From Cordylochernes scorpioides (taxonomy: Eukaryota; Arthropoda; Arachnida; Pseudoscorpiones; Chernetidae): DNA of 64,000 nt. The stretch lies in contig CP092874.1 of the NCBI GenBank assembly GCA_030710605.1, forward strand, positions 74,031,044 through 74,095,043. The letters run 5' to 3'. The position numbers and the translations under genes were made by a program. The notes under the pieces were generated by a model that was given only the letters and a program-made list of their open reading frames with translations, did no database searches and was not told the origin of the DNA. Positions 5,132-64,000 of this stretch are shown piece by piece (the first letter of the stretch is position 1; each line of letters starts with the position of its first letter).

Positions 5132-5315
5132 TGTGTATATAAAATTAATATTTATATATAATTATTATATTATTATATATATATTATATATATAATATTT
5201 ATTATTAAGTTTTTAACGTGATAATCCTGTTGAAGGACAGACAAGTCCGAAAGCTTGAAGATAAAAAGTTGAACAAGAAACTTAGGCCTGGAAGCTTCAT
5301 TTATTTTATAACATA
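5132..5315. other. AT-rich spacer with hammerhead-like hairpin C (5226-5258)
   Basis: Contains cctgttgaagga...gtccgaaagcttg at 5226-5258, one of five copies of a hairpin with a hammerhead-like layout (CTGTTGA, stem, GAAA). The rest is AT-rich. Confidence 0.5.
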
Positions 5316-5572
5316 TGTCGCGGAGATAAATAAAGCAAGGGCAAGTTTGGTGATAATTTATTTATTATAAGGGGTATTTATAGGGAGAGAGAGAGAAAGT
5401 ACAACTTACCCTCAGTTAAAACTAATCCTGAATGAACGGCGTTAGCCACCGTCCCGTTTTCCTTATTTACAGATCAGCTTCCCAGAAGCCCCCACACCTG
5501 TAGTCCCCCCCCCCCCCCCCCGGGGTCCAGGGATGATTGACAGTTGTCCCATCTGGATGGAGCTACTTGACA
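5316..5572 (-). repeat. Left LTR (3' LTR of the element)
   Basis: 257 bp, begins TGTCGCGGAG and ends CTTGACA on the plus strand, so it has TG...CA termini. Contains a run of about 19 C near 5505, a short GA repeat and an AATAAA word. It differs from the right LTR mainly in homopolymer length and a few substitutions, suggesting a fairly recent insertion. Confidence 0.95.
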
Positions 5573-5586
5573 TTACTCCCTCTTTA
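5573..5586 (-). promoter_or_regulatory. Polypurine tract
   Basis: On the minus strand the sequence aaagagggagtaa abuts the LTR start TGTC. This is the expected position of the plus-strand primer of an LTR element. Confidence 0.75.
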
Positions 5587-5607
5587 GAAAAAACAGCGAC
5601 CCGCTGA

Positions 5608-6345
5608 TCAGCTTGTCTCAGCCCTTGTTCTGGAAGGAAATCTATCACGGCCTGTGTTCCCTAGCAGAATGGAATGTTGTTCTTCAGGGTCCAGGTAGGG
5701 CTTCATCCGGATGACATGAACGATATCCTTGGATTTCCGTGATCGGGGAGACGGGTCCACGGGCTCTACTTCATACGTAACTTCTGAAAGCTTCTTGGTC
5801 ACCTTGTAGGGACCGAAGTATCTCTTCAGTAGCTTTTCTGAGAGCCCTACTTTTCGGATGGGAGTAAAAAGCCCACACAAGATCATCCTTCTGGTAATAG
5901 ACTGGAGTATGTTTCTGGTCGTAAAGTCTACGGTCTTTCGCCTGTGATTGTAGAAGGCGTGATCGGGAGAGTTGACGCGCTTCCTCAGCTCTGGTCACAA
6001 GTTCCCCAACGTAGTCTCAGAGATCTCATCTGGTAGGTAGGGTAGTACGGCATCGATGTAGGTCTCGGCCTCGCGGGCGTGGACAAGAAAGAACGGAGTG
6101 TAGCCGGTCGCCTCCTGTTTAGCAGTGTTGTAAGCAAAAGTCACGTAGGGTAAAACTTGGTCCCAGTCCTTCTGCTCGACACCTGTGTACATGGACAACA
6201 TGTCTCCCAGAGTTTTGTTGAACCTTTCAGTCAGGCCGTTGGTCTGGGGATGGTAGGCCGTTGTAAATCTGTGCACAATTCCGCACAGAGCATTGATCTC
6301 TTTTATTACTTGAGAAATGAAATTTCTTCCGCGATCTGTTATCAT
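5608..6345 (-). pseudogene. Integrase C-terminal part, broken
   Basis: Minus-strand continuation of pol. The segment 5995-6345 carries the second and third catalytic residues of the integrase core: Asp in ITDRGRNF and Glu in NGLTERFNKT. The first Asp lies upstream in the neighbouring frame. Near 5998 the frame shifts, and it shifts again near 5885. The last part (5608-5886) has the integrase C-terminal pattern RYFGPYKV and ends after an IRMKPYLDPEEQ-like tail. A TAA at 6346-6348 separates it from the upstream pol frame. The products would be truncated and inactive. Confidence 0.9.
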
Positions 6346-8601
6346 TTATCTAGGAGCTCCATGCTTCAAGATAACATCTTCAACCAGGAACTTAGCTGTT
6401 TCGATTGCTCCTCCGTCTGGGATCGCTTTCGTTATGGCATACCTTGTCATATAATCGGTGCACACAATGATCCAACGGTTTCCATCTTTAGAAACTGGAA
6501 ATCTTCCAAGGAGATCGACCCCGACCTTATAGAATGGCTTTTCTACGGGCGGTATGGATACAAGTTGTCCAGCCGGACGTCGAGGTAATTTCTTCCTTCG
6601 TTGACACTCCCGACAATGGCTTACATATTGGCGAACAGTTCTATAAAGGCCAGGCCAATATAATCGTTTCTTGACTTTGTCATACGTTCGGGCGAAACCC
6701 AAATGCCCAGCTGTAGGAGCGTCATTTAAATCTGCCATAACTTCCGATCTTAAGTGCTTAGGGATCATCATAAGCCAGGGTCTTCCAGTTGTGCTATAGT
6801 TTTTCTTGTATAAGATGCCGTCGATAATGCTGAATTCCTTTCTGGTGTAGCCCGAGTTTAAATTATCGATTATTTTAGCTAAATCCGGGTCTTTAGTCTG
6901 CTCTATATCGACGTTGGTTAGTGACATCACAGCACTTGGTGGATCGTTCTCAAGCGGGCTCCTTGACAGACAATCGGCATCCTTATGTTTGCGTCCGCTC
7001 TTGTAGATAACGGTCACGTCAAATTCTTGCAACTTCAGCGCCCATCTTGCCAAACGGCCAGAAGGATCTTTCTGCCCTACCAACCAACATAGAGAATGAT
7101 GGTCAGTGACAACCGTGAATGGTCGACCAAACAAATATGGGCGGAATTTGCTAATAGACCAGACTACAGCAAGGGATTCTTTTTCCGTTGTAGAATAGTT
7201 ATTTTCAGCCTTTGTCAAGCTTCTAGATGCATAAGCTATAGGCCGCTCCTTTCCACCTTGTATTTGTAGAAGAACAGCTCCAATACCATGTCCGCTTGCA
7301 TCCGTGTGTAGATGGGTATCAGCGGATTCATCAAAGTGTCCTAAGACAGGCTCTGAAATTAGAGCTGTTTTAAGGGCTTCAAACGCTTTCTCTTGAGCTG
7401 CATCCCAATAAAATTGTTTTTCAGTCTTCAGTAGGTCATGCAAAGATCTAGCTTTGTCGGCAAAGTTCTCAATAAATCTTCGGTAATAGGAACATAATCC
7501 AAGAAAGCTCCTCAGTTCAGAGATATTCCTTGGCCTCGGAAATTTAGAGACGGCTTCAACTTTATCTGGATCTGGATGAATTCCATTGGCGTCAACAAGG
7601 TGTCCCAAAATCTTTATCCTCCTTGATCCAAAAAGACACTTTTTGTGGTTCAAGCTTAGTCCAGCTTTCTGGATGCAGCTTAATACAAGTTGTAGACGAC
7701 GTAGATGTTCCTCAAAGGTAGGTGCGTAAACTACGATGTCGTCCAGGTAGCAAAGGCACATGTTCCATTTAAGACTGCCCAGAACACTATCTATCATCCT
7801 TTCAAACGTTGCTGGAGCGTTACAAAGACCGAAAGGCATTACTTGGAATTCATACAACCCATCTGGAGTGATGAAAGCAGTTTTCTCCCTGTCTTTTTCG
7901 TCCACTTCAATCTGCCAATACCCGGACCGAAGATCCATCGTGGAGAAGTAACTAGAGCCGGCTAAACTATCCAAGGCATCGTCAATGCGTGGCAGCGGGT
8001 AAACATCTTTTTTTGTTATCTTATTTAATCGACGGTAATCTACGCAGAATCTCCAGGTCCCGTCTTTCTTTCGAACTAGAATAACTGGAGATGACCAAGG
8101 ACTTTCAGAGGGCTTCACGATGTGATTTTCAATCATCTTGTTCACTTCATCTTGAATTAGTCGTCGTTCACTTGGTGCTACTCTATAGGGCCTCTGTTTG
8201 ATAGGAGAGTGGTCGCCTGTGTTTATCTTGTGCTTCACAGTACTGGTGGGCTTAATAGGAGTACTCCCAAAGTCAAATATGTCGATAAACTCGTCAAGGC
8301 ATGAAACAAGCTGTAACCTTTGAATTTCAGACAGCCCTGAATCTAGAGTAAGGTTTATCTTCTGTGACCATTCACGTGACTTTAGCTGCGTTTCTTGTAA
8401 CTTATCGCTGGATTCAATAAGACTGCAGATATTCCCATTCTCATAACTTTCCATGGTGCACATATTCATTCCTGATGGAATCAGTTGCGGCCAAGAGGCT
8501 CCATTCGCCACCCAAATGCTACCTCGGCCGTGTCGAAATGTAACCAATGAGTTTGGTATAAGAACTTCCTTTCTTAATAATAAGTCCTTAGAAGTTGAGA
8601 C
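6346..8601 (-). pseudogene. Pol: reverse transcriptase, RNase H, integrase N-terminus
   Basis: A long open frame of about 733 codons (6346-8547), in the same frame as the protease upstream but split from it by a TAA at 8602-8604. The reverse transcriptase core shows DLRSGYWQ, FGLCNAPATF and the YLDD active site (roughly residue 270). RNase H has its four acidic positions (HTDASGHG, TEKESLAV, VVTDHHSL, KDADCLSR). The integrase zinc region has GHLG...W and HCRECQ, but the first zinc His of the usual H-D/N motif is Asn (LND). The core begins at VGVDLLGRFP. The frame ends at GAPR followed by TAA. As a single frame this RT is remarkably intact. Confidence 0.95.
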
Positions 8602-9051
8602 TTAAACATCTCTAACACCACATATTTCTTCGTTTATCACACTGATCTTCTTTATTGATTTAGGCGGGATGACAAAGTCTTCGGAAGCAAACAATCTCTG
8701 GTTTTCCTCCTCTCGAGATTCCAGGACGGAGGTTTCCCCGAGATGGAGTTCATTTCTGCCACAATCAATGACGGCCTCGGTGGCCTTGAAGAAGTCCCAT
8801 CCAAATATGATATCATGGCTGCATTCCACTATAACAACGAATTCAAATGAGATATTCAGACCATTAACTTCTATGTTCAGGACACATTTTCCTAGGGTCT
8901 CTATTAAATCTTTGTTTGCGGCTTTAAGAATGGGACCTGGTTCTTTGAAGAGAGGTGTCTTTAGTTCGCGTCGAAATTTGTCTGAAATAACAGAAAAATC
9001 GGCTCCTGAATCCACCAATGCTTTAATTTTGCGTCCATTTATTTCGACCAT
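8602..9051 (-). pseudogene. Retroviral-type aspartic protease region of pol
   Basis: The protease domain shows the active site VDSGADFSVIS at about residues 13-23 and the IIFGWDF flap/hydrophobic motif. The codons upstream of its first ATG remain open toward gag in this frame but include a TAA a few codons before the ATG. The frame ends at TAA 8602-8604 although the pol frame continues beyond it. The domain normally matures the Gag-Pol polyprotein. Here the stop would prevent an RT fusion. Confidence 0.9.
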
Positions 9052-9137
9052 AACAAAATTTTATTTTAATTTAGCGGCGATATACCCTGGAGGATTTTCC
9101 TCAATGGCGACCTCACCCCCGTTAGAAGCCGCTCCAC

Positions 9138-10397
9138 TTAGTTTTTCACATTCTGAGGCTTGGGAGAACGGCTGAAACGACGGGTTGGCGACTGGGATTG
9201 TCTTCGGGCTGGCGACCTTGCGCGGCTTGGATGTGGGGAAGAGCTCCGGTAGAAGTACGTCGAGGTTTGGGGCGTTACATAGTCGTCGTCGGCGTCATAT
9301 CTCGGGGGTCGACTCGAAAATCCAACATTTCTTCCTTCTCCGCCATTCCTTGTCCTGGCTTCAGCGTAGACCTGCCGTCGTTCCCTACAATAACGGACGA
9401 CATGTCCGGGTCGTCCGCAGTGGAAGCAGATAGGTTTGTCGTCGTAGGTTCTCCAATGTTCCGTCTTCCTGGGTTGGGTTGGTCGGTCGATATTATAATA
9501 GGGCGTTCGTGGTTGTTGTTGTACCACGTTGACTTGTGGTCTGGTAGGTTGTAGAGCACGGCTGACCTCTTCCCTCACAGTCTGTTCCAGGGCGTTCACC
9601 TCTCGGAGAGGAATGATCACTTCAGGTGCTGAGAAAACCTTTTGTATCTCTTCTCTAACGATGCGGCGAATTAAGCCGGCCAAGTCGTCTGAGTCGTCAA
9701 CACACGAAATGGGCATTACGTTTGACAACCTGGCGAATTTCGTACGGCCGATCCGGCGCTGCTTGACGGTTGTCAGATGACGGCAGAACTTCAGGATCTC
9801 ATCTACCGTCTGTATGTCTTTCGCCACCAATACCTGGTATGTGTCCTCCGAAATTCCCTTTATAATGTGAGCAACTATCTCACCTTCTTCCATGCGAGGG
9901 TTCACCTGGTGGCAGAGACTAATAATCTCCTGGATGTATGACTCGCTGGATTCTTCGGCCTTCTGTGCTCTTGACTTCAGAACTTCCTCGGCGCGTAGAG
10001 CAGAATCATCCTGTAGTCCGAACACACTGCGGAATGCGTCTTCAAAGCTTCTCCACGAGTTGAGTGATTCTTCGTTATTATCAAACCACCTTCCAGCAGT
10101 TCCGTTCAAGTAAAATACGACGTTGGCAAGCTTCATGGTCTCGTCCCATCTGTTGTACTTCGAAACTCTCTCGTACTCTTTCAACCACTGTCCAGGGTTT
10201 ATATTTCCATCTCCAGAAAAGGTAGAAGGATCTCGTTGGCGTTGACAAGGGAGGTAGGATCCGTTAACAGTAGGTCTGTGGTCGTCTTCAATTTCTATTC
10301 GTTGTGGCAAAGGTTGAAGAATTGGTTCACCTCCCTGTGTCACGCTACCCAGCGTCTCCACCAAAATATGTCGCGGAGATAAATAAAGCAAGGGCAA
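9138..10397 (-). CDS. Gag of the gypsy element
   Basis: About 419 codons open. The first codon is TTG inside the right LTR and no ATG precedes the conserved gag core, so the true start is not identified. The middle holds the capsid-like segment starting at FSGDGN and WLKEYERVSKYNRWD. A CCHC zinc knuckle (CFHCGRPGHVVRYC) lies near residue 325, followed by an Arg/Ser-rich tail (RSSSPHPSRARSPARR), as in RNA-binding nucleocapsids. Gag and pol are in different frames, so pol expression would need a frameshift or separate initiation. This is the one ORF of the element with no visible internal break. Confidence 0.85.
   Translation of the reverse strand: MPLLYLSPRHILVETLGSVTQGGEPILQPLPQRIEIEDDHRPTVNGSYLPCQRQRDPSTFSGDGNINPGQWLKEYERVSKYNRWDETMKLANVVFYLNGTAGRWFDNNEESLNSWRSFEDAFRSVFGLQDDSALRAEEVLKSRAQKAEESSESYIQEIISLCHQVNPRMEEGEIVAHIIKGISEDTYQVLVAKDIQTVDEILKFCRHLTTVKQRRIGRTKFARLSNVMPISCVDDSDDLAGLIRRIVREEIQKVFSAPEVIIPLREVNALEQTVREEVSRALQPTRPQVNVVQQQPRTPYYNIDRPTQPRKTEHWRTYDDKPICFHCGRPGHVVRYCRERRQVYAEARTRNGGEGRNVGFSSRPPRYDADDDYVTPQTSTYFYRSSSPHPSRARSPARRQSQSPTRRFSRSPKPQNVKN
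10346..10363 (-). promoter_or_regulatory. Candidate primer binding site
   Basis: On the minus strand TGGTGGAGACGCTGGG begins a few bases inside the upstream LTR. A TGG start is expected from pairing with a tRNA CCA end. I do not assign the tRNA. Confidence 0.5.
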
Positions 10398-10622
10398 GTT
10401 TGGTGATAATTAATTTATTATAAGGGGTATTTATAGGGAGAGAGAGAGAAAGTACAACTTACCCTCAGTTAAAACTAATCCTGAATGAACGGCGTTAGCC
10501 ACCGTCCCGTTTTTCCTTATTTACAGATCAGCTTCCCAGAAGCCCCCACACCTGTGGTCCCCCCCCCCCCCGGGGTCCAGGGATGATTGACAGTTGTCCC
10601 ATCTGGATGGAGCTACTTGACA
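10369..10622 (-). repeat. Right LTR (5' LTR of the element)
   Basis: 254 bp, same termini as the left LTR. Differs by a shorter C run (about 14) and few substitutions. Confidence 0.95.
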
Positions 10623-11180
10623 ATATGTTTTAGCAGGTGAAGTAGCAGGGCCAATAAAACATCGTATGTTTGAGGAAAGGTAGTGTTCGTGTGAGATAAA
10701 GGCGTCTCTTCTTTTAAAAATTCACAGTTTTAATCTATTTGCCAACACTTTCTCGTGAAATTTCTGCATCAATATGTGTGATAAATACGAAAAGATCTAG
10801 GTAAAATTTTAAAATTTATTGCAGAACGTTTATTTTTTATTTATAAAATGTAATTTTTCGAATATTATAAACTCCACATCAGACAATTGCGATAATATTT
10901 GTAAACATTTGATAAAATCTCAAAATATATTAATCTCATGTGTGATGTGAGATGATCATTTGTAATGTAGAGAATTTATAAGTTGAAAGATAACTTATTT
11001 TAAATAAAATATCTCAGTGGAAAGTGATTTTCCTATTTACTTTGAATTAATGCCTGGAATTCCATAGATAGAAATACAAAAGAATTAGACAATATATATG
11101 CCAATTAAAATTGAAAAAATGTAAAAGAAAAAATATAAATATGTAAAATATATTTCAAATAAAAAACATAAATTCCTTGC
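10623..11180. other. AT-rich, nothing recognised
   Basis: No gene or repeat family identified. Confidence 0.4.
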
Positions 11181-12449: not shown

Positions 12450-13500
12450 CAGTGTCGGGCAACCTTTTTCGAGTTGCGGCGCACTAAGCTTAATTTCTTT
12501 TTTTCGCGGCGCACCTGTGGTTCTCACTATAAATTTCCTCGTAGGTAATTAAAATACAACAATAAATACTAGTAAAAATTTAAACATATATATCACATTT
12601 TATTAATTTTCAATATTAAATTAACATAATCAATGCGAGCATTGCGATTGTTTTTGAGAGCATATCAAATCAATACGGGGATCTACTTGTGAAAGACAAA
12701 CGCGCATCTCCTCATCTATCATTTGAAGTCTTTCGCGCTTCTTAGACTTCATTTCTGTGAGTGTTGAAAAACCTTGCTCACACAGGTAGGAACTTCCAAA
12801 TGGCAACAATGATTCGATGGCCGCATTACTAAGTTTAGGAAATTTGGTGTTTAAGCACAACCAAAACTCAGATAGCTCCTTTTCAGTGAATAGTCTTTTG
12901 AAATAAATTTATAAATTTATATATATATATATTATTTATATATTAAATTATAATTTTTTTTGTTTTCTTTTTTTTTTAAGCTTTGTAGCTTTGAGTCTCT
13001 ATTAATAAACAGCTGTGACAAAGATTGTAAATGACGGTTAAGTTTGGACATATTATTTTAAAAATTAGGTATTTTCCCGCAGTATGTATTCAACTTTATT
13101 AAATAAAGTTGTTTTCGCGGATTGTTTTTTTTTAACTTATGATTTTAAATAGGTACGTACCTATTTGCATTTTTATTTTTTAATAATGGCACGTGCCAGT
13201 TATGTACGTCAAGATTATGTACATACGTTATATGAAATATAAAATTATGCAAACTGTTGTAATTATAATACCAAAATAAGTTTTATATAAAATGAAATTT
13301 GCTTTTTTTAAATTTCATTTTTTATATGAAAATTTTTGAAAAAAATCATTAAAATTGAATAAAAATTATAAAAAATATTTTTTTGAACATTATTTTTAAA
13401 TTTAACCAAAAGTTCTAAATACCTACAAAAATGTTCGCGGCGCACCTAGAATTCTTCGCGGCACACCAGTGTGCCACGGCACACCGGTTGCCCGACACTG
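12450..13500 (-). mobile_element. hAT transposon relic with 8-bp target duplication
   Basis: Termini are imperfect inverted repeats starting CAGTGTCGGGCAACC (left) and ending GGTTGCCCGACACTG (right). The element is flanked by a perfect 8-bp duplication CTTTAGAT (12442-12449 and 13501-13508), diagnostic of hAT. It is 1051 bp with only the transposase C-terminus left, so it is internally deleted. It inserted into the foldback element at 12163-12447, which is therefore older. Confidence 0.93.
12630..12860 (-). pseudogene. hAT transposase C-terminal (dimerisation) fragment
   Basis: The 76-codon minus-strand frame has the hAT C-terminal pattern: F-P-K-L-S...LLPFGSSYLCEQGFSTLTEMKSKKR, ending VDPRIDLICSQKQ. 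This region mediates dimer formation in ZBED/Buster-like transposases. The BED finger and catalytic parts are missing. The frame starts downstream of any normal start, so it is a remnant. Confidence 0.85.
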
Positions 13501-13537
13501 CTTTAGATCAATATTAACCTGGGAAAATATCCATTTA

Positions 13538-13714
13538 CAGTTAAATCTGTCTATAGTGCCCCCTCTTCGGACTCACCAAAATAGGGTGCTATAGATAAGG
13601 GGTACTATACACAGGTCACTTTTAATGTAAAATGTTTACATTTTAATGTTTAAAATCGGGCGCTATAGAGAGGAAGGTGCTATTTAGAGGGGGCGCTATA
13701 GACAGGTTTAACTG
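13538..13714. mobile_element. 177-bp MITE, copy 1 (pogo/Tc1-like termini)
   Basis: Terminal inverted repeats of about 28 bp (CAGTTAAATCTGTCTATAG... / ...CTATAGACAGGTTTAACTG) with TA on both sides. Exactly 177 bp, as are copies 2 and 3. Confidence 0.9.
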
Positions 13715-13734
13715 TATTAAGAAAATGCATCTCC

Positions 13735-13995
13735 TTATCGTTGCTGATGGCTTGCCCTATCTATTTGAATAAATATCCGTTGATTTTTTATTATTCCAGA
13801 ATCAATAGTTTTACAACGAATAGTTGATATTGTTTCTGATAAAATGCTTCACGATTTTGCGTATCATCCTTTGCGCAGGGGCCATTCTAATCTTCTCTGC
13901 ATCGTTCCAATTTTGGTGTATGTACCGCCGAACAAGATGGCGCAAGACATCAGCAACTTTCAGTTGCACGAAAAGGAGTTTCCCTTTTCTTAATT
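13735..13995. repeat. Family-A repeat arms flanking a U6 pseudogene
   Basis: 13735-13810 is a minus-oriented family-A segment and 13936-13995 a plus-oriented one. Together they form an inverted pair with U6 sequence between them. The arms share gttgctgatggcttg and its complement. Confidence 0.7.
13841..13935 (-). pseudogene. U6 snRNA pseudogene, nearly full length
   Basis: The minus strand reads the U6 order: TTCGGCGGTACATACAC, then AAAATTGGAACGATGCAGAG, AAGATTAGAATGGCCCCTGC, GCAAAGGATGATACGC and AAAATCGTGAAGC. Against canonical U6 it has several substitutions (for example GATGCAG for GATACAG, TTAGAATGG for TTAGCATGG) and one inserted A in GCGCAAAGG. It lacks the first few and last bases. 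It is embedded directly between inverted family-A repeat arms with no U6 promoter, so it is a chimeric retro-copy rather than a gene. Confidence 0.9.
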
Positions 13996-14053
13996 TATTC
14001 ACCATATCCCAGTAAAATTTCACTTTTGTACTATTTTTCTCACTTTCTAAATA

Positions 14054-14230
14054 CAGTTAAACCTGTCTATAGCGCCCCCTCTGGGGACTCACAAAAATAG
14101 GGTGCTATAGAGAGGGGGTGCTTAGACAGGTCACTTTTAATGTGAATCGCATCGTGCTACATATTTAAAATCGGGCGCTATAGAGAGGGAGGCGCTATTT
14201 AGAGGGGGGCGCTATAGACTGGTTTAACTG
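14054..14230. mobile_element. 177-bp MITE, copy 2
   Basis: Same termini and length as 13538-13714, TA flanks. Best preserved internal hairpin (gggcgctatagagagggagg). Confidence 0.92.
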
Positions 14231-14479
14231 TATTGTTTGTTGGACTCACAGTAAGAGAGAGATTTTTCTCAAATCTTCGATGAACGAAATTCAACATTAA
14301 AACTGAACATGTTGATTCATATTCATAATTTTCGTCCACTAGGTCAAAAAATGTTGATAAAAGCTTGACGCGTCGACTTATTTATGTATTTAAAACTACA
14401 TCTCGATCATAGATGTGCTTTTTATTTTTAAACAAACATTGTTAACTTTTTAATTTTTCTGTTGATATTCTTCCAACTA
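14231..14479. other. AT-rich spacer between MITE copies
   Basis: No gene or repeat recognised. Confidence 0.4.
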
Positions 14480-14656
14480 CAGTTGAACCTGTCTATACCG
14501 CCCCCTCTTGGGACTCACCAAAATAGGGTGCTATAGAGAAGGGGTGCTATAGACAGGTCACTTTTAATGTAAATCGCATCGTACTACGTATTTAAAATAG
14601 GACGCTATAGAGAGGGAGGCGCTATTTAGAGGGGGCACTATAGACAGGTTTAACTG
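14480..14656. mobile_element. 177-bp MITE, copy 3
   Basis: Same termini and length as the other two copies, TA flanks. Confidence 0.92.
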
Positions 14657-14834
14657 TATTTACTCTCAAAATAGTGGGATGCTTTAAAATGATTTGTAGT
14701 TGAATAATATTTTAATTATTTTTAAACTTTTGGGATGAGACAGAGTCAATTTATAACCGCGTGTGTGTCTTCAGATGGTGTTGAATGTTGCAAGATGAAC
14801 TAGAGAGAGGTGCCTTCAAGAGATTGAGAAAAAG

Positions 14835-15065: not shown

Positions 15066-15259
15066 TGTTAGGATGATTTAAAGGAAAGAATTCGAAACAT
15101 TTTCTGAAGATGAATCGACGGAGCTTCCATTGACGTACATGGGGGAGGTGCTGGGGGTATGAGTAACCCTTGCCACGATGAGTCAGGCCCCAACCCTTTT
15201 ATCCATGTATGGACCTTTCTCGATTTAAGACTGCTAGAATTTAAGGCCAAACCGCATTT

Positions 15260-15335
15260 GAAACCAATATTGGGAGGGCTTCGCTTATCATTGGTGAACC
15301 TTATAAGTGATTTCACCAGTTTAATTCGTCATACA
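15260..15335 (-). repeat. Family-1 repeat variant
   Basis: Contains the 'ggagggct...ggtgaacct' signature of family 1. In this variant the CGAAAC half is replaced by gtgatttcaccag. A related variant is at 16925-16990. Confidence 0.6.
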
Positions 15336-15404
15336 GCTTCAATATTGTATTGGTCTATTCTGATTATATTTACGGTGTCCTAGAGAAATTCTTTATTAAT
15401 ATAT

Positions 15405-16495
15405 TTAAGGAAAATATGCACCCAAGAGATTTGAGGACAATATATATCAGAATAAATTACACTTCATATACTTTGGTCATAAATACGATCAATTTGAATA
15501 ATATAAAGTTGGATTGATGACTTCAAAATGGTAGCCTTAAATGTCATATGTCTAAGTTCCTATCAGTTTTCAGACAATATTTGTTTTTGGGAAGGAAAAT
15601 TGTCACATATTTGTTTATAGTTTTGAGAGGTTATGTAAATATGGTAGAAAATATTGCGACGTGGAAAATTAGAGAAGACCAACTTCGGGATGAGACAACA
15701 ATTTATTTCAGACAAGAACAAACTATGAACGATAAACAAAAGATAAGCAAAAGAGGGAAGTGTAGAGAATATAGCAAAAGAGGGAAGTGTAGAGAATATA
15801 GCAAAATATAAACATGAAAAATAATACTCTGCTAATAAAATAATGAATACTTTGTTACAATATACGTATAAAAGTAGGTTTTTTTTTTGGCCAAGAGAGT
15901 CGTGCAATAAATGAGATTTTTCAATTGTTTCCTAGCTTGATGTTACAGAATCCCCGCCGCACAGGTTCGAATCCTGTCGGCTGCGCCAATTCTGTAACAT
16001 CACTCTAGGAAACAATTGAAAAATCTCATTTATTGAACGAATCTCTTGGCCAAAAAAAAAAAAAACTTCCTTCTATATTATTTTATTAGCAGAGTATTAT
16101 TTTTCATGTTTATATTTTGCTATTCTCTGTACACTTCCCTCTTTTGCTTATCTTTTGTTTATCACTCATAGCTTGTTCTTGCCTGAAATAAATTGTTGTC
16201 TCATCCCGAAGTTGGTCTTCCCTAATTTTCCACGTGGCAATATTTTCTACCATATTTACATAATATCTCAAAACTTTAAACAAATATGTTACAATTTTCC
16301 TTCCCAAAAACAAATATTGTCTGAAAACTGATAGGAAATTAGACATGTCATTTAAGGCTACCATTTTAAAGTCATCAATCCAACTTTATATTATTCAAAT
16401 TGATCGTATTTATGACCAAAGTATATGAAGTGTATAAACTTCAACTTGATATACATATTGTCCTCAAATCTCTTGGGTACATATTTTCCTTTAAT
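15405..16495. repeat. ~1.1-kb inverted repeat: two head-to-head LTR-like arms
   Basis: The left arm (about 15405-15947) and right arm (15993 to about 16495) are inverted copies, differing by small indels and point changes. If the outer TG (15417) and inner CA (15947) are taken as ends, each arm looks like an LTR of about 490-530 bp: TG...CA termini, a TATAAA-like word and caataaatgag near the inner end. The similarity also continues about 12 bp outside the TG. Between the arms lies a 45-nt spacer with a tRNA-Ser 3' half (15951-15988). No gag or pol sequence is attached. Short frames inside the arms are not conserved between the two arms. Confidence 0.85.
15951..15988 (+). pseudogene. tRNA-Ser 3' half ending in CCA
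   Basis: tccccgccgc, acaggttcgaatcctgt and cggctgcg match the variable arm, T arm and 3' acceptor strand of a eukaryotic tRNA-Ser. They are followed directly by CCA, which nuclear tRNA genes do not encode. The source was therefore probably a mature tRNA. Read on the other strand it begins TGGCGCAGCCGACAGGATTC, the form of a tRNA-Ser primer binding site placed 4 nt (GAAT) from the LTR-like arm end. Confidence 0.8.
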
Positions 16496-16499
16496 ACCT

Positions 16500-16830
16500 A
16501 AACCGGGGGTCGGTTAAAGGATGGTCTAAACCGTTGGTTTTCGACCTCTACAACCCAGGTTCGATTCCCGCATTGGGCACTTTTTTTTCTGATTAACAAC
16601 AACAAAAAAAAAAAAAAATGCTTCAATGATCCCCGATTCTTGCAAAAGTCCAACCCCATCAGCGAGTGCAAGTAACCAAACGGGGCTCTGGCACATTTGT
16701 AAGTGCAATGTCGAAATGCTTTTCATGTGTGTAGACATGTGGTGCACTTACAGTATAAGCAGTCGCTTACTTCTACCCACCATGATCATCATGCCCTGTA
16801 ACACGTATACTAGGGATAAGCAAAAAAAGT
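16500..16830 (+). mobile_element. tRNA-derived SINE, copy 1
   Basis: The head has a pol III A-box-like tggtctaaaccg and a B box ggttcgattcc. A T run, a ~200-bp body (agcgagtgcaagtaacc ... gtagacatgtggtgcactta) and an A-rich end (ataagcaaaaaaa) follow. It starts directly at the right edge of the LTR-like inverted repeat. Confidence 0.85.
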
Positions 16831-17164
16831 ACCTTAACCAAGAATTTCTCTATGGAACCGGATATATAATAGGAGACGACAATAGACCAATACAACATTA
16901 GAACTATATGGCGAATTAAACTGATGAAACCACTTATAAGGTTCACCAATGATGAGCCAAGCCCTCCCAATATTTTTTTAATCACGAAAGGAATAATAAA
17001 AAGTTCTATCTGTTTTTTTTTTTTTTTTAATCGCGAGAGATGAATAGTTTTACTTCTAAAATATATAATGTTGCGGCTGGATGATATTCATCTACCAAAA
17101 GAGACATTTCTCAATTTGAAATGCATTAACTCAATGCATATCGGTTTATCACTACGGTTTAAAA
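16831..17164. other. Family-1 variant (16925-16990) and AT-rich sequence
   Basis: 16925-16990 carries actgatgaaaccac...ggttcaccaatgatgagcc, a variant of the family-1 word order. The rest is AT-rich with a T run near 17014. Confidence 0.5.
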
Positions 17165-17346
17165 CGTAAAAGTGGCAATAAATAAAGTGTCACAACACCC
17201 GTTTTGGAAAATTCAACAAAGCCAACCTATATGACATGGTTTTGGGCTATGGCCCTCATCTGTACAGGCTTCTTTCATAGGATGTCATAAAACTGAAGCT
17301 ACCCCTGTACTGATGAAGGCAACAACCCGAAATTATGGTATATTCA
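17165..17346. repeat. Family-B repeat pair with two inverted hammerhead motifs
   Basis: 17221-17269 (minus) has CAGATGA, stem II GGGCCATAGCCC and AAAA in place of GAAA. 17300-17347 (plus) has CTGTA-CTGATGA, a weak stem II and an intact GAAA followed by TTATGGTATATTC. The two face each other as an inverted pair. The right member directly truncates the mariner copy that follows. Confidence 0.65.
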
Positions 17347-17966
17347 TGATGCACTACGCCCCTGCAATCGAAGAAAACTGTCAGCAAAACTTTCACATTC
17401 GACCGAACTTGGAGCGCTTTTTTCGGTCTTGGTTCGTGCGGCAGCTTCCATTGAGATGATTGAGCTTTGGTTTCCACGTCATAACCATAAACCCACGCTT
17501 CATCACCAGTTATGACCCTCTGGAGCAAATTTGGGTCGTCGCGGACAGAGTCCAACATCATCTCATTGGCAATGTTCATGCGATGCTGTTTTTGGTCGCA
17601 ATTGAGCAATTTTGGTACGAATTTCGCGGCGACCCGTCTCATGCCCAAATCATTGATAAAAATCGAATGGCACGAGCCAATCGATATGTTTAGGTCCTCA
17701 GCAACTTCTCTAACGGGGATTCGACGATTGGCCAATATCATTTTCTAGACTTCATTAATATTTTCGTCTGTTGTTGAAGTGCTCGGGCGTCCGGCACGCT
17801 CTTCGTCGTTCACATCTTCTCGGCCTTCTGAGAACATTTTGTACCACCGATAAACGTTACTTCGGTCCAAGGTAGCTTCTCCGTATGCCACAGTCAACAT
17901 TCGGAATGCATCCGCGCACTTAATTTCGTTTTTCACACAAAATTTGATACAGGTTCTTTGATCCAT
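17347..17966 (-). pseudogene. Mos1-type mariner transposase pseudogene
   Basis: Starts with ATG at 17966 (MDQRTCIKFCVKNEIKC). Contains the helix-turn-helix DNA-binding region with YRWYKMFSEGRE and the linker AGRPSTSTTDENINEV, then a TAG at 17742-17744. The same frame continues with MILANRRI...DLNISIGS and the first catalytic Asp in VITGDEAWVYGYD, up to DCRGVVHHEY. After this the codons belong to the neighbouring hammerhead repeat. The second and third catalytic Asp are missing. Apart from the stop and truncation the reading frame is well preserved, suggesting a fairly recent arrival. Confidence 0.9.
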
Positions 17967-18173
17967 TTTTTTTTAATAGGTAAAAATCGAAGACGATCCA
18001 AAACACCTGCAAGCAAAGCAGCTGTCAACAATTAAGTGAACATTCAAAATGGCCGAGCTTGTCGGCATAAGTGAGAGATATGAGTACCAACATAAAGCCC
18101 TAAAAAGATCGAAATTCGAATGTACGTAACCCGCGAAAATTCAAAAGTCGCGATACTTTTTGAACACACCTCG
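17347..18173 (-). mobile_element. Mos1-type mariner, 3'-truncated
   Basis: On the minus strand the element begins with a terminus CGAGGTGTGTTCAAAAAGTA (ending at 18173) beside TA. It contains the transposase start and runs to about 17347, where it is cut off by the family-B hammerhead repeat. The other terminus is missing. Confidence 0.88.
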
Positions 18174-18955: not shown

Positions 18956-19142
18956 TATTAACCCTAGTACACATGGTACAGGCCATGATAATCATGGTGG
19001 GTAAAAGTTGGCGACTACTTTTACTGTAAGTACACCACATGTCTACACATGTGTAAAGCAGTTCGACTTTGCACTTACAAATGTACCAGAGCCCCCGTAT
19101 GGTTACTTGCACTCGCTGGTGGGGTTGGATAAGGTTGAACAT
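18956..19142 (-). mobile_element. tRNA-derived SINE, 5'-truncated copy
   Basis: The body matches the other SINEs (tgtagacatgtggtg, agtgcaagtaacc) in the minus direction. The tRNA-like head is missing. Confidence 0.8.
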
Positions 19143-20780: not shown

Positions 20781-20849
20781 AATACAAGAGAAGGAATCAC
20801 CAGACATCATCTTGAAGAAGGAACAAAAGTTAACGGTGACTCTTGGATT

Positions 20850-21030
20850 TCCACCCTTCAGTGTAGCATATAAAAGCAGAATCGTTCAATACAGTATTAG
20901 AGCTCTAAAGAAGCGGTCTGATAGATTAAATTGGCGAAACCGCTGGGAGGGTTCACCACTGATGAGCCAACTCCTCCCAATATTTTTTCATCGCAGTAAA
21001 GACAGTAGAAGTTTGTTTTTTTTTTAGGTT
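20850..21030 (+). repeat. Family-1 repeat, long copy
   Basis: Carries the full signature: cttcagtgtagcatataaaa, ggcgaaaccgctggg, ggttcaccactgatgagcc, then ctcccaat and catcgcagtaaagacag. Confidence 0.75.
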
Positions 21031-46123: not shown

Positions 46124-46139
46124 ATAGAATAAATGGGGG

Positions 46140-47689: not shown

Positions 47690-48210
47690 TATGACATAAA
47701 AGCTTATGATACATTAACGCGCCATCTGTTATAAATTTCGAAACTATTATAGACGGGTATGATTCTTTTTGAAAATAAAAAAATAAAAAAATAAAAATAA
47801 AATAAAATTAAAATTAAATTAAAATAAAATTAAAATAAAATAAAAATTAAATAAAAATTAAATTAAAATTAAAATTAAATTAAAATTAAAATTAAAATAA
47901 ATTAAAATAAAATAAAATAAAATAAAATAAAATAAAAATATAATAAAATAAAAATAAATAAATAATAAAAATAAAAATTCTACTGTCCTTGCTGCAATGG
48001 AAAAATTAATGGGAGGGCCTGGCTCATCAGCGGTGAACCCTCCCAGCGCTTTCGCCAGTTTAATCTACCATACCGCTGTTACATTGCATTTTTCGATCTT
48101 CCTTTTATAGTGATACTGTTACTAGACTCTTGGAATGGGTATTTTATACCCATGGTTCACCACTGATGAGCCAGGCCCTCCCATTAATTTTTTCATTGTT
48201 GTAAGGACAG
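47690..48210. repeat. Family-1 foldback, copy 1, with A-rich microsatellite
   Basis: The edge gcgccatctgttataaatttcg is followed by an AAAATA/AAATTA microsatellite (47785-47975). Two inverted family-1 units follow (47976-48060 and 48150-48210), with ctgatgagccaggccctccc and its complement. Confidence 0.8.
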
Positions 48211-48289
48211 TATAAATTGTTTATTTTCAAAAAGAATCAATCGTGTCTAAAATAGTTTCGAATTTAGATAAAAGCTTATATCCATAGTT

Positions 48290-48532
48290 GCTTGAATACT
48301 ATTTCTAAGATTCTATCCTTCAGTGCAGCGTATAAAAGCAGAATCGTCCAATACAGTATTAGAGCTTTAAGAAGCGGTCGGTAGAATAAATTGGCAAAAT
48401 CGCTGGGAGGGTTCACCACTGATGAGCCAATCCCTCCCAATATATATATATTTTTTTGCATCGCAGTAAGGACAGTAGAATTTTATGTTTAAAAGAAACA
48501 TTCATATGATACACTAGCGCGCCATCTGTTAT
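48290..48532 (+). repeat. Family-1 repeat, long copy
   Basis: Same order as 20850-21030, with ggcaaaatcgctggg in place of ggcgaaaccgctggg. Confidence 0.8.
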
Positions 48533-48848
48533 CAAAATTCAAAACTATTTTAAAGGCGTAAGATTATTTTTAAAATTAAACAATTTCTACTGCCCTTACT
48601 GCAATGGAAAAAATTAATGGGAGGGCCTGGCTCATCAGTGGTGAACCCTCCCAGCGGTTTCGCCAGTTTAAAAGGAAGTTCCAAAAATGCAATATAACAG
48701 CGGTATGGTAGATTAAACTGGCGAAACCGCTGGGAGGGTTCACCACTCATGAGCCAGGCCCTGCCATTAATTTTTCCATTGCAGTAAGGGCAGTAGAAAT
48801 TGTTTAATTTTAAAAAGAATCTTACGCCTTTGAAATAGTTTTGAATTT
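48533..48848. repeat. Family-1 foldback, copy 2 (316 bp)
   Basis: Arms of about 125 bp are near-perfect complements. Each arm has the edge block, cagtaagggcagtagaaatt, gggagggcctggctcat and gcggtttcgcc. On the plus strand only the right arm keeps cgaaac, but its core word is CTCATGAG rather than CTGATGAG. Confidence 0.88.
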
Positions 48849-49908
48849 GGAAACATTGATGCTTAAATACTTCCATATCTTATATATAGATATGGCACGC
48901 TATCATCTTATGATTAATGCACATAATGTTCAACGATAGTTTTTGTATAAATTAGTCTATTTCTATATAAAGGTGGCGTGATCGTAGCCGACCAATAGGA
49001 GGGCGCCATTCCAAAAAAAAGCAAACCGTGACAGAGGCGACGAAGAATGACGCTCGTAACTGTATATAGAATACGTTAAATTTTCATTATATGATGGAGA
49101 TTATCTCTGTAAGACTGATCTTTTTTGCAAGCATACACCCAGTGTATGAAAAAGTAAAAGTTGTATAAGCTTATGATTTTGCTTTGTTTTAAAAATGAAT
49201 CGATGTTGGTTCCATATGTTTGAATTGAATATTACACCTTAGTTCTATATATTTTATTGCTTAAAAAGGAACACAACAAAACAAAAAAAAAATAAACTTA
49301 CAATTGAAAATGATTTGATAACTAAGAAAAAAACAATTTTAAAAATTATTATGATAAAAAAAATGAATATGTCTGCCAGAAAAATGCTTCTATGAATTAA
49401 AAAATAAGAATAATTACAAAATTTAACATATAAACTTCAAACACCCAGCTTTCACATGTTACTAAATCCACATGTTTCTGTTTAAAAATCAAAGATCTAG
49501 AGCAGATTACAATCTTCACATTTGAAAGCTCGCTAGTTTCACATTTCAAGCACATCCAGGTGGGCAGTATGTAAAAGCTCTTTGACATTTATTGCCCCGA
49601 CCTACAGAGAACAAGAAGTTATAAAATACCTATGGTTATGTATTCCATAAGTTTATAGTCAGGACTCTGCCATATTAATGAGGCTATGGAAAACCCAGGT
49701 TTATGGTTCCATTGTCCCATAGTATATGACTGACCCATATGAAATCTAATTGGATTTTGAAATAAAGATTCTTATGTATTGAAAAAAAGACATTCTAAAC
49801 CTAGATCAAATACTTTAAAGATCTTTGGAAACAAATATTTCTTTCAAATATATTACGTTTGTTAAAAATAAATCATATATATTGTGATACATTAATGCGC
49901 CATCTGTT
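48849..49908. other. Mostly AT-rich, no gene; inverted block 48958-49075
   Basis: 48958-49075 (ggtggcgtgatcgtagcc, gaccaataggagggcgccat, gacgctcgtaactgtatata) recurs inverted at 50205-50300. No gene recognised in the rest. The 63-codon minus-strand frame at 49397-49588 has no motif. Confidence 0.45.
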
Positions 49909-63745: not shown

Positions 63746-64000
63746 CCCGAGAAAATTAGAAAATACGGCGCAATAGTCAGAAATCCCATAACAAAAAACA
63801 ATAGCCATAACTCACCAATATACAACAGTCAAGCAATATACTCAATAGAATGCAACCAATGCAATAGTATGTACATAGGCGAAACCAGCAGACAAGTAAT
63901 AGACAGGACAAACGAGCACACCAGATCCATAAATAAAAAGATAAAAAATCCCTTTTATACCAACACACAAAAATACAGGTCACACCTTCAACCTAAATAA
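63746..64000 (+). pseudogene. GIY-YIG endonuclease fragment downstream of the hammerhead
   Basis: Open for 84 codons after a TAG at 63743-63745, to TAA at 63998-64000. It contains I-Y-S-I-E-C-N-Q-C, then M-Y-I-G-E-T-S-R-Q-V-I-D-R-T-N-E-H: the GIY-YIG core, CxxC insert and catalytic Arg of Penelope-like endonucleases. It then leaves the family pattern after PFYTNTQKYRS, suggesting a frameshift just before the window edge. Two stops upstream (TAA, TAG) cut it from any reverse transcriptase. It differs in sequence from the copy at 58626-59006, so two Penelope-like families are present. Confidence 0.85.

Follow-up and report, generated by a model that had tools for sequence, protein, structure and literature searches.

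An LTR palindrome centred on primer-tRNA sequence in Cordylochernes scorpioides, a probable relic of aberrant reverse transcription

In the genome of the pseudoscorpion Cordylochernes scorpioides, two long terminal repeats (LTRs) face each other in opposite senses across the CCA-ended 3' part of a tRNA-Ser, and we consider it likely, with a probability of roughly 0.7, that the centre of this palindrome is the fossil of an aberrant reverse transcription by a tRNA-Ser-primed short-LTR retrotransposon, whose product was later integrated. The window, meaning the whole stretch of 64,000 nucleotides that we analysed, corresponds to positions 74031044-74095043 of contig C12 (CP092874.1), and the genome searched comprised 2.62 Gb in 24 contigs. 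The original prediction of an aberrant reverse-transcription product carrying a copied tRNA primer is well supported, as the LTR family is real, the tRNA copy is extended and inverted junctions of this kind recur. The palindrome probably belongs to the rare type of fossil that was then proposed, but it is not unique, given that four distinct palindromes were found.

Self-comparison of the window returned one inverted pair (15402-15951 versus 16496-15989) and a further, collinear one (15266-15399 versus 16974-16834). As the arms aligned collinearly across the site of a 322-bp SINE once this element was omitted, they are approximately 685 bp long, and the outer edge assigned earlier is the SINE site. 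Aligning the two arms for their boundaries therefore upheld a real palindrome, while moving its edges to 15266-15951 and 15989-16974 (Table 1). Chance can be set aside, since the self-match of 15402-16496 reached E = 0.0 in blastn and the same structure is present in a paralogous copy 73 kb away. Read on the minus strand, the order LTR, GAAT and tRNA piece was as claimed (..GATGTTACA-GAAT-TGGCGCAGCC). The description of two inverted LTR-like arms of about 490-530 bp was correct as to the inverted arms but not as to the extent of the LTR, which starts at 15601 in other genomic copies; arms of 490-530 bp were therefore rejected as LTRs.

Table 1. Features of the palindrome and of the duplicated segment around it (window coordinates unless a contig is named)
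Feature	Position	Strand	Remarks
Duplicated segment	10848-18488	.	Duplicated at C12:74116158-74121870; three aligned blocks, 93-97% identity, palindrome included
Left outer arm, host DNA	15266-15600	+	Inverted copy of 16294-16974 minus the SINE; outermost ~130 bp similar to an abundant repeat core
Left LTR, TGTCAC..GTTACA	15601-15947	+	~133 bp plus inserted MITE with 27-bp tandem duplication
MITE in left LTR, ATATTG..CAATAT termini, with 27-bp duplication	15651-15864	+	~190 bp
GAAT, 4 nt separating LTR end from primer site	15948-15951	+	Also in normal copy L049 and in the other palindromes
CCA-terminated 3' part of tRNA-Ser type, 37 nt	15952-15988	+	The 20 nt adjoining the right LTR are the family's primer site
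ATTC, mirror of GAAT	15989-15992	-	First nucleotides of minus-strand cDNA
Right LTR, opposite sense	15993-16293	-	Same MITE, deleted at its inner end
MITE in right LTR, truncated	16077-16243	-	
Right outer arm, host DNA	16294-16974	-	Broken up by the SINE
tRNA-derived SINE in right outer arm	16505-16826	+	322 bp; flanks TACCTAAACC / TACCTTAACC; also in the duplicate

The centre of the palindrome reads GAAT, 37 nt and ATTC, and the 37 nt display the marks of a tRNA 3' part, namely a T stem with five out of five pairs (ACAGG/CCTGT), the loop TTCGAAT, a seven-nucleotide acceptor strand (CGGCTGC), a discriminator G and CCA. We take it to be tRNA-Ser on the basis of these features and of the general sequence of animal tRNA-Ser, which also underlie our base numbering. 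Of the 38 nt of CCA-ended tRNA-Ser initially reported, the CCA-ended 3' part stands, whereas its length is 37 nt at the window locus and 34 nt in the duplicate; in both, the copy reaches the variable arm. The claim that the copy runs past the primer site and the m1A58 position was borne out as well, as normal copies of the family match only 19-20 nt. A tRNA-derived SINE was not recognised at the centre, which consists of the tRNA 3' part alone with LTR ends on both sides, and these LTR edges, revealed by the genome search, likewise ruled out a tRNA-headed SINE or a poly(A) retrocopy as candidates.

To place the arms in a family, we searched the genome with 15865-16060 and scored the best 40 of 280 candidates, the table being read as 40 loci. 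Among these, 23 started at query position 105 or 106 and comprised the LTR, GAAT and 19-20 nt of tRNA complement, and one had a shorter primer-site match. Another seven consisted of the LTR only, six of them stopping exactly at 15947 and one earlier, while three, in a cluster on contig C1, matched 30-32 nt of the tRNA. The remaining six matched both sides of the query and are palindromic, corresponding to four distinct palindromes once duplicates were merged; this 6/40 is no frequency, because the query itself is palindromic and just the best candidates were scored. A second search, with 15402-15640, had its best 40 of 88 candidates scored. Four of these matches were the C12 arms, and 32 of the other 36 started within 6 nt of 15601, which places the LTR start at TGTCACAT; of the last four, two started 9 and 14 nt upstream of 15601 and two were weak and lay elsewhere in the query.

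Without the MITE, the LTR is thus a multi-copy unit of about 133 bp with TGT..ACA termini (TGTCAC..GTTACA). GAAT and the primer site, 19-20 nt complementary to the tRNA 3' end, could be read directly in the normal copy L049. On contig C13, two LTR matches of about 133 bp lie on the same strand in direct order, about 1.9 kb apart (match coordinates 3940491-3940623 and about 3942267-3942400), and a copy spanning just ~1.9 kb suggests a non-autonomous member. The family has three hallmarks of an LTR retrotransposon: a multi-copy TG..CA LTR, a tRNA primer site and two direct-order LTRs around an internal region. The arms had been predicted to be LTRs with a tRNA-Ser-type primer site, a claim that would have fallen had no such element existed elsewhere; the genome search found a real family. 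Inspected by eye, neither the C9 palindrome nor the LTR edges at C12 showed a target-site duplication. The C1 cluster (C1:101212587-101213638) holds three LTR matches within ~1.1 kb, with a tRNA match of 30-32 nt versus the usual 19-20, and is possibly a set of further extended-tRNA junctions or a tandem array. The window also contains a Gypsy-type element on the minus strand (5310-10625) with gag, RT, RNase H and integrase pieces and LTRs of ~265 bp at 97% identity. The sequence following its LTR, TGGTGGAGACGC, differs from the tRNA-Ser primer site, and this different primer site ruled the element out as the source of the LTRs. A GIY-YIG domain fragment, presumably of the kind found in Penelope-like elements, lies at 63746-63997 (+).

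The four distinct palindromes lie on contigs C12, C19, C8 and C9, those on C12 and C9 each with a duplicate. At C19 (68011716-68011933), the order is LTR, GAAT, 52 nt of tRNA complement, ATTC and inverted LTR; the sense strand of the tRNA starts TGAAATCC, contains the TTCGAAT loop and ends in CCA. Its start is what we take to be the first anticodon base (34) of a UGA-type tRNA-Ser, going by general tRNA-Ser anatomy. C8 (58103137-58103369) carries a 53-nt tRNA copy running from TGAAAT to CCA, again with the TTCGAAT loop although its T stem has decayed to two of five pairs, and 16 extra nucleotides precede the inverted LTR. The C8 and C19 copies share their start at anticodon base 34, which could reflect one event that was copied. 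The C9 palindrome, present as two mutual duplicates 55 kb apart in opposite orientation, has a different centre: a 20-nt primer site and ~58 nt, followed by ATTC and the inverted LTR. The first ~37 of these ~58 nt resemble the internal sequence of L049, and the remainder extends past the L049 stretch that was compared. The C9 palindrome stops at the LTR starts, with differing, non-palindromic flanks. In all four palindromes ATTC marks the start of the inverted LTR, at C8 after the 16 extra nucleotides.

The C12 locus has a history of its own. The duplicate 73 kb away contains the same palindrome and the same SINE, with three bases missing from its 34-nt centre, and the SINE insertion predates the duplication because it is found in both loci; the remainder of the event order at C12 we infer. 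Two stretches of the window that are missing from the duplicate (12452-13500 and 17343-18173) overlap hAT-dimerisation and mariner-type transposase fragments and were therefore likely inserted after the duplication. Also inside the duplicated segment is a match to U6 snRNA that clearly exceeds the gathering score (13839-13943, minus strand), and several ~190-bp copies of one repeat with GCTATAGA motifs are clustered in the same orientation at 13530-14660. Counting over gap-free two-state columns of the four arms, with six mixed-pattern sites and all gapped columns left out, we found 25 sites that separate the left from the right arm in both duplicates: 22 in 15266-15460, two in 15461-15600 and one in 15601-15951. 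Split at 15560, shared sites numbered 24 and 1 on the outer and inner side, versus 10 and 24 for private sites (Fisher P = 1.3e-7), so that the 34 private changes are not skewed alike. Given this skew of the shared differences towards the outer arm, we conclude that, ahead of the duplication, the inner ~490 bp were either homogenised or formed after the outer arm.

In the loci examined there were 28 near-complete copies of the MITE, two of them belonging to the duplicate palindrome, and one MITE base was common to all four C12 arms and absent from the other 26 copies, which argues for one insertion present in both arms. Among the best 40 of 2848 candidates, the MITE was seen in no LTR copy besides those of C12; its presence in both LTRs yet in no other scored copy therefore indicates that it probably spread by arm-to-arm conversion. 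Further matches to the SINE of the right arm occur in the window at 46137, 27222 and 25017, with a partial one at 19129.

The host DNA outside the LTRs is what a pure reverse-transcription product leaves unexplained. At C12 the palindrome takes in 335 bp of host DNA per side, which counts against integrated cDNA alone. Sequence 15405-15600 and its mirror had been included in the LTR; they are host DNA and lie beside none of the other LTR copies scored. Indeed, among the best 40 of 88 candidates, 15402-15600 and its mirror adjoined no other LTR copy and matched in full just the four C12 arms, and the same matches gave no indication of a fold-back DNA element, i.e. a multi-copy unit with long terminal inverted repeats. 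For the same reason 15402-15600 was dismissed as an internal region with a polypurine tract, and the purine run just before 15601 is host DNA, judging from the matches to 15402-15640. Divergence does not step at the LTR edge either, as two fixed differences fall in 140 nt of host DNA (15461-15600) versus one in 351 nt of the LTR part, and this missing step counts against a reverse-transcription origin of the arms alone. The host palindrome could be older than the LTR product, which its broken tip would then have captured, or it could stem from fold-back copying of the flank at a later time. The first option agrees with the higher divergence seen in 15266-15460 yet not with that of 15461-15600, which is low; in the second, one flank would have been copied and the inner part then converted. 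The repeat core of the outer ~130 bp had 64 matches in 338 kb of the genome, and some copies are strongly hairpin-forming. In the window it lies at 15266-15392, 182-405, 20849-21011 and 47966-48850, with flanks that vary by copy, and beyond the palindrome edge the right arm agreed with the repeat majority string at 35/54 positions and the left arm at 29/56. A ribozyme in this outer repeat was considered and rejected: none was found at Rfam gathering scores in the window or in a relaxed search of 15150-17100, where a MIR6135 match reflects the hairpin.

How might such junctions have formed? Plus-strand copying normally halts near m1A58. Minus-strand DNA begins on the tRNA, and its 5' end therefore reads tRNA-ATTC-U5', copying of which would give U5-GAAT-tRNA copy. 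We propose that plus-strand synthesis read through the U5 end into a still-attached primer tRNA, past the m1A58 stop, to copy 34-53 nt; tRNA copies of this length at three palindromes require copying beyond A58, a position read as A in all three (C12, C19 and C8). Because the second LTR begins at the point of tRNA removal, the partner would be an LTR end already freed of tRNA. The plus-strand 3' end may have switched, or been ligated, to the U5 end of this tRNA-free LTR cDNA, such that a plus-strand 3' end bearing GAAT and a minus-strand 5' end bearing ATTC would yield LTR-tRNA-LTR', and a polymerase template switch and ligation would both fit. At C12 and C19 the base following the tRNA copy is presumably an A in the tRNA, identical to the A with which ATTC opens. 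This one-base overlap fits a switch, albeit weakly. At C9, the same switch may have followed the second strand transfer, starting ~58 nt into the element and leading to the same partner end. The palindromic product would then have entered the chromosome, presumably by integration. At C12, an older host palindrome may have taken it up at its tip, or the flank may have been copied by a fold-back that came later, and afterwards the MITE and SINE would have inserted, the inner arms been homogenised and the locus duplicated. The palindrome at the centre probably has no function.

The common stop at C19 and C8 bears on two other readings. Tentatively, the primer could have been an anticodon-cleaved tRNA-Ser 3' half instead of a whole tRNA, with the run-off end of the plus strand then switching onto the 3' terminus of another LTR cDNA; plus-strand run-off at base 34 of a cleaved tRNA would explain why both copies begin there. 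If this were true, cut tRNAs would supply a regular side branch of reverse transcription by which U5-tRNA-U5 palindromes enter the germline. Somewhat more doubtful is a single aberrant event, with C12, C19 and C8 descending from one palindromic founder and the C12 tRNA part shortened by deletion. The same starting base at C19 and C8 and the GAAT/ATTC boundaries common to all palindromes would agree with such descent, but over 105 columns the C12 and C19 LTR arms are 5-12% apart, a distance similar to that between the C19 arms and a normal copy (2% and 10%). Moreover, the centre of C9 is different, and by eye the sequence outside the LTR start differs among C12, C19 and C9 (C8 was in neither comparison).

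Both readings keep the tRNA as a primer. An unlikely alternative makes it a filler: the sister ends at a double-strand break beside a genomic LTR would have been fused around a cDNA of mature tRNA-Ser, and the inverted duplication would be chromosomal rather than a retrotransposon product. It accounts for the palindromic host flanks at C12; moreover, breaks are known to be followed by fold-back inversions (PMC10622511), and jumps onto tRNA CCA ends are described for the reverse transcriptase of R2 (PMC3414825). It leaves unexplained, however, why the tRNA is the family's own primer, placed exactly at the primer site and recurring at C19 and C8, and the C9 flanks show no palindromy. An interim version, with tRNA filler in non-LTR DNA, had been favoured because of the MITE inside the arms and because no copy of the inner arm without the MITE was found within 338 kb of genome besides the four C12 arms; it was overturned when the genome search found the LTR family. 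Later rearrangement of a normal integrated element, with one LTR inverted and a deletion leaving the LTRs facing, is more improbable still. It could explain C9, with its primer site and internal sequence, but the 19-20-nt match of normal copies cannot supply the extra tRNA at C12, C19 and C8 (three of the four loci), nor does it predict breakpoints at ATTC in 4/4. Finally, head-to-head palindromes are a known class of assembly artefact, yet such an error is unlikely at C12 and an origin in inverted chimeric reads hardly credible, as the arms are distinct at many sites, two loci 73 kb apart have 25 left-right differences in common and other palindromes lie on other contigs.

Reverse transcription through a still-attached primer tRNA thus remains our preferred reading, and intermediates of reverse transcription are short-lived, so loci that preserve them in the genome are informative. 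They record how far a primer tRNA was copied (past m1A58, to the variable arm or the anticodon) and the uptake of a second LTR at the point where primer and DNA meet. Since one family offers several examples, comparing their junctions can test how the ends were joined and whether the primer was a whole or a cut tRNA. They also show a route to LTR palindromes. Such palindromes are unstable, and the C12 host flanks suggest that they may give rise to further rearrangement.

A literature search by title and opening of the abstract, with most subscription papers outside its scope, found no germline LTR-tRNA-LTR palindromes among the papers listed; each ingredient is known, both tRNA or primer-site sequence at LTR joints (PMC5618025) and CCA-tailed tRNA pieces (PMC3414825). 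HIV-1 2-LTR circle junctions are described as carrying PBS or tRNA primer sequence, or inserted viral sequence, and as being linked to defective RNase H activity (PMC5618025). They resemble our palindromes in that LTR ends are joined with retained primer-site or tRNA sequence. Those circles, however, are unintegrated and join U5 to U3, whereas here U5 faces U5 in inverted orientation, the tRNA copy is 34-53 nt long and the product is fixed in the genome at several loci. For Drosophila R2, CCA-tailed genomic tRNA pieces are described, among them an 80-bp extension matching tRNA-Lys and 18 nt of tRNA-Gly, which were read as copying of mature tRNA (PMC3414825). R2 and the family studied here both place CCA-tailed tRNA pieces in genomic DNA, but R2 encodes a non-LTR enzyme for which the tRNA is a chance second template, while here the element's own primer links two LTRs. 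Fold-back inverted duplications after breaks offer a possible origin for the palindromic C12 host flanks; they are primed from short inverted repeats without tRNA, unlike the C12 centre (PMC10622511). Lastly, the non-autonomous Helenus LTR elements of bivalves are primed by tRNA 3' ends, tRNA-Ser included, and so share the type of primer with the family found here, while carrying tRNA-like sequences of their own as a Helenus feature (PMC10886601).
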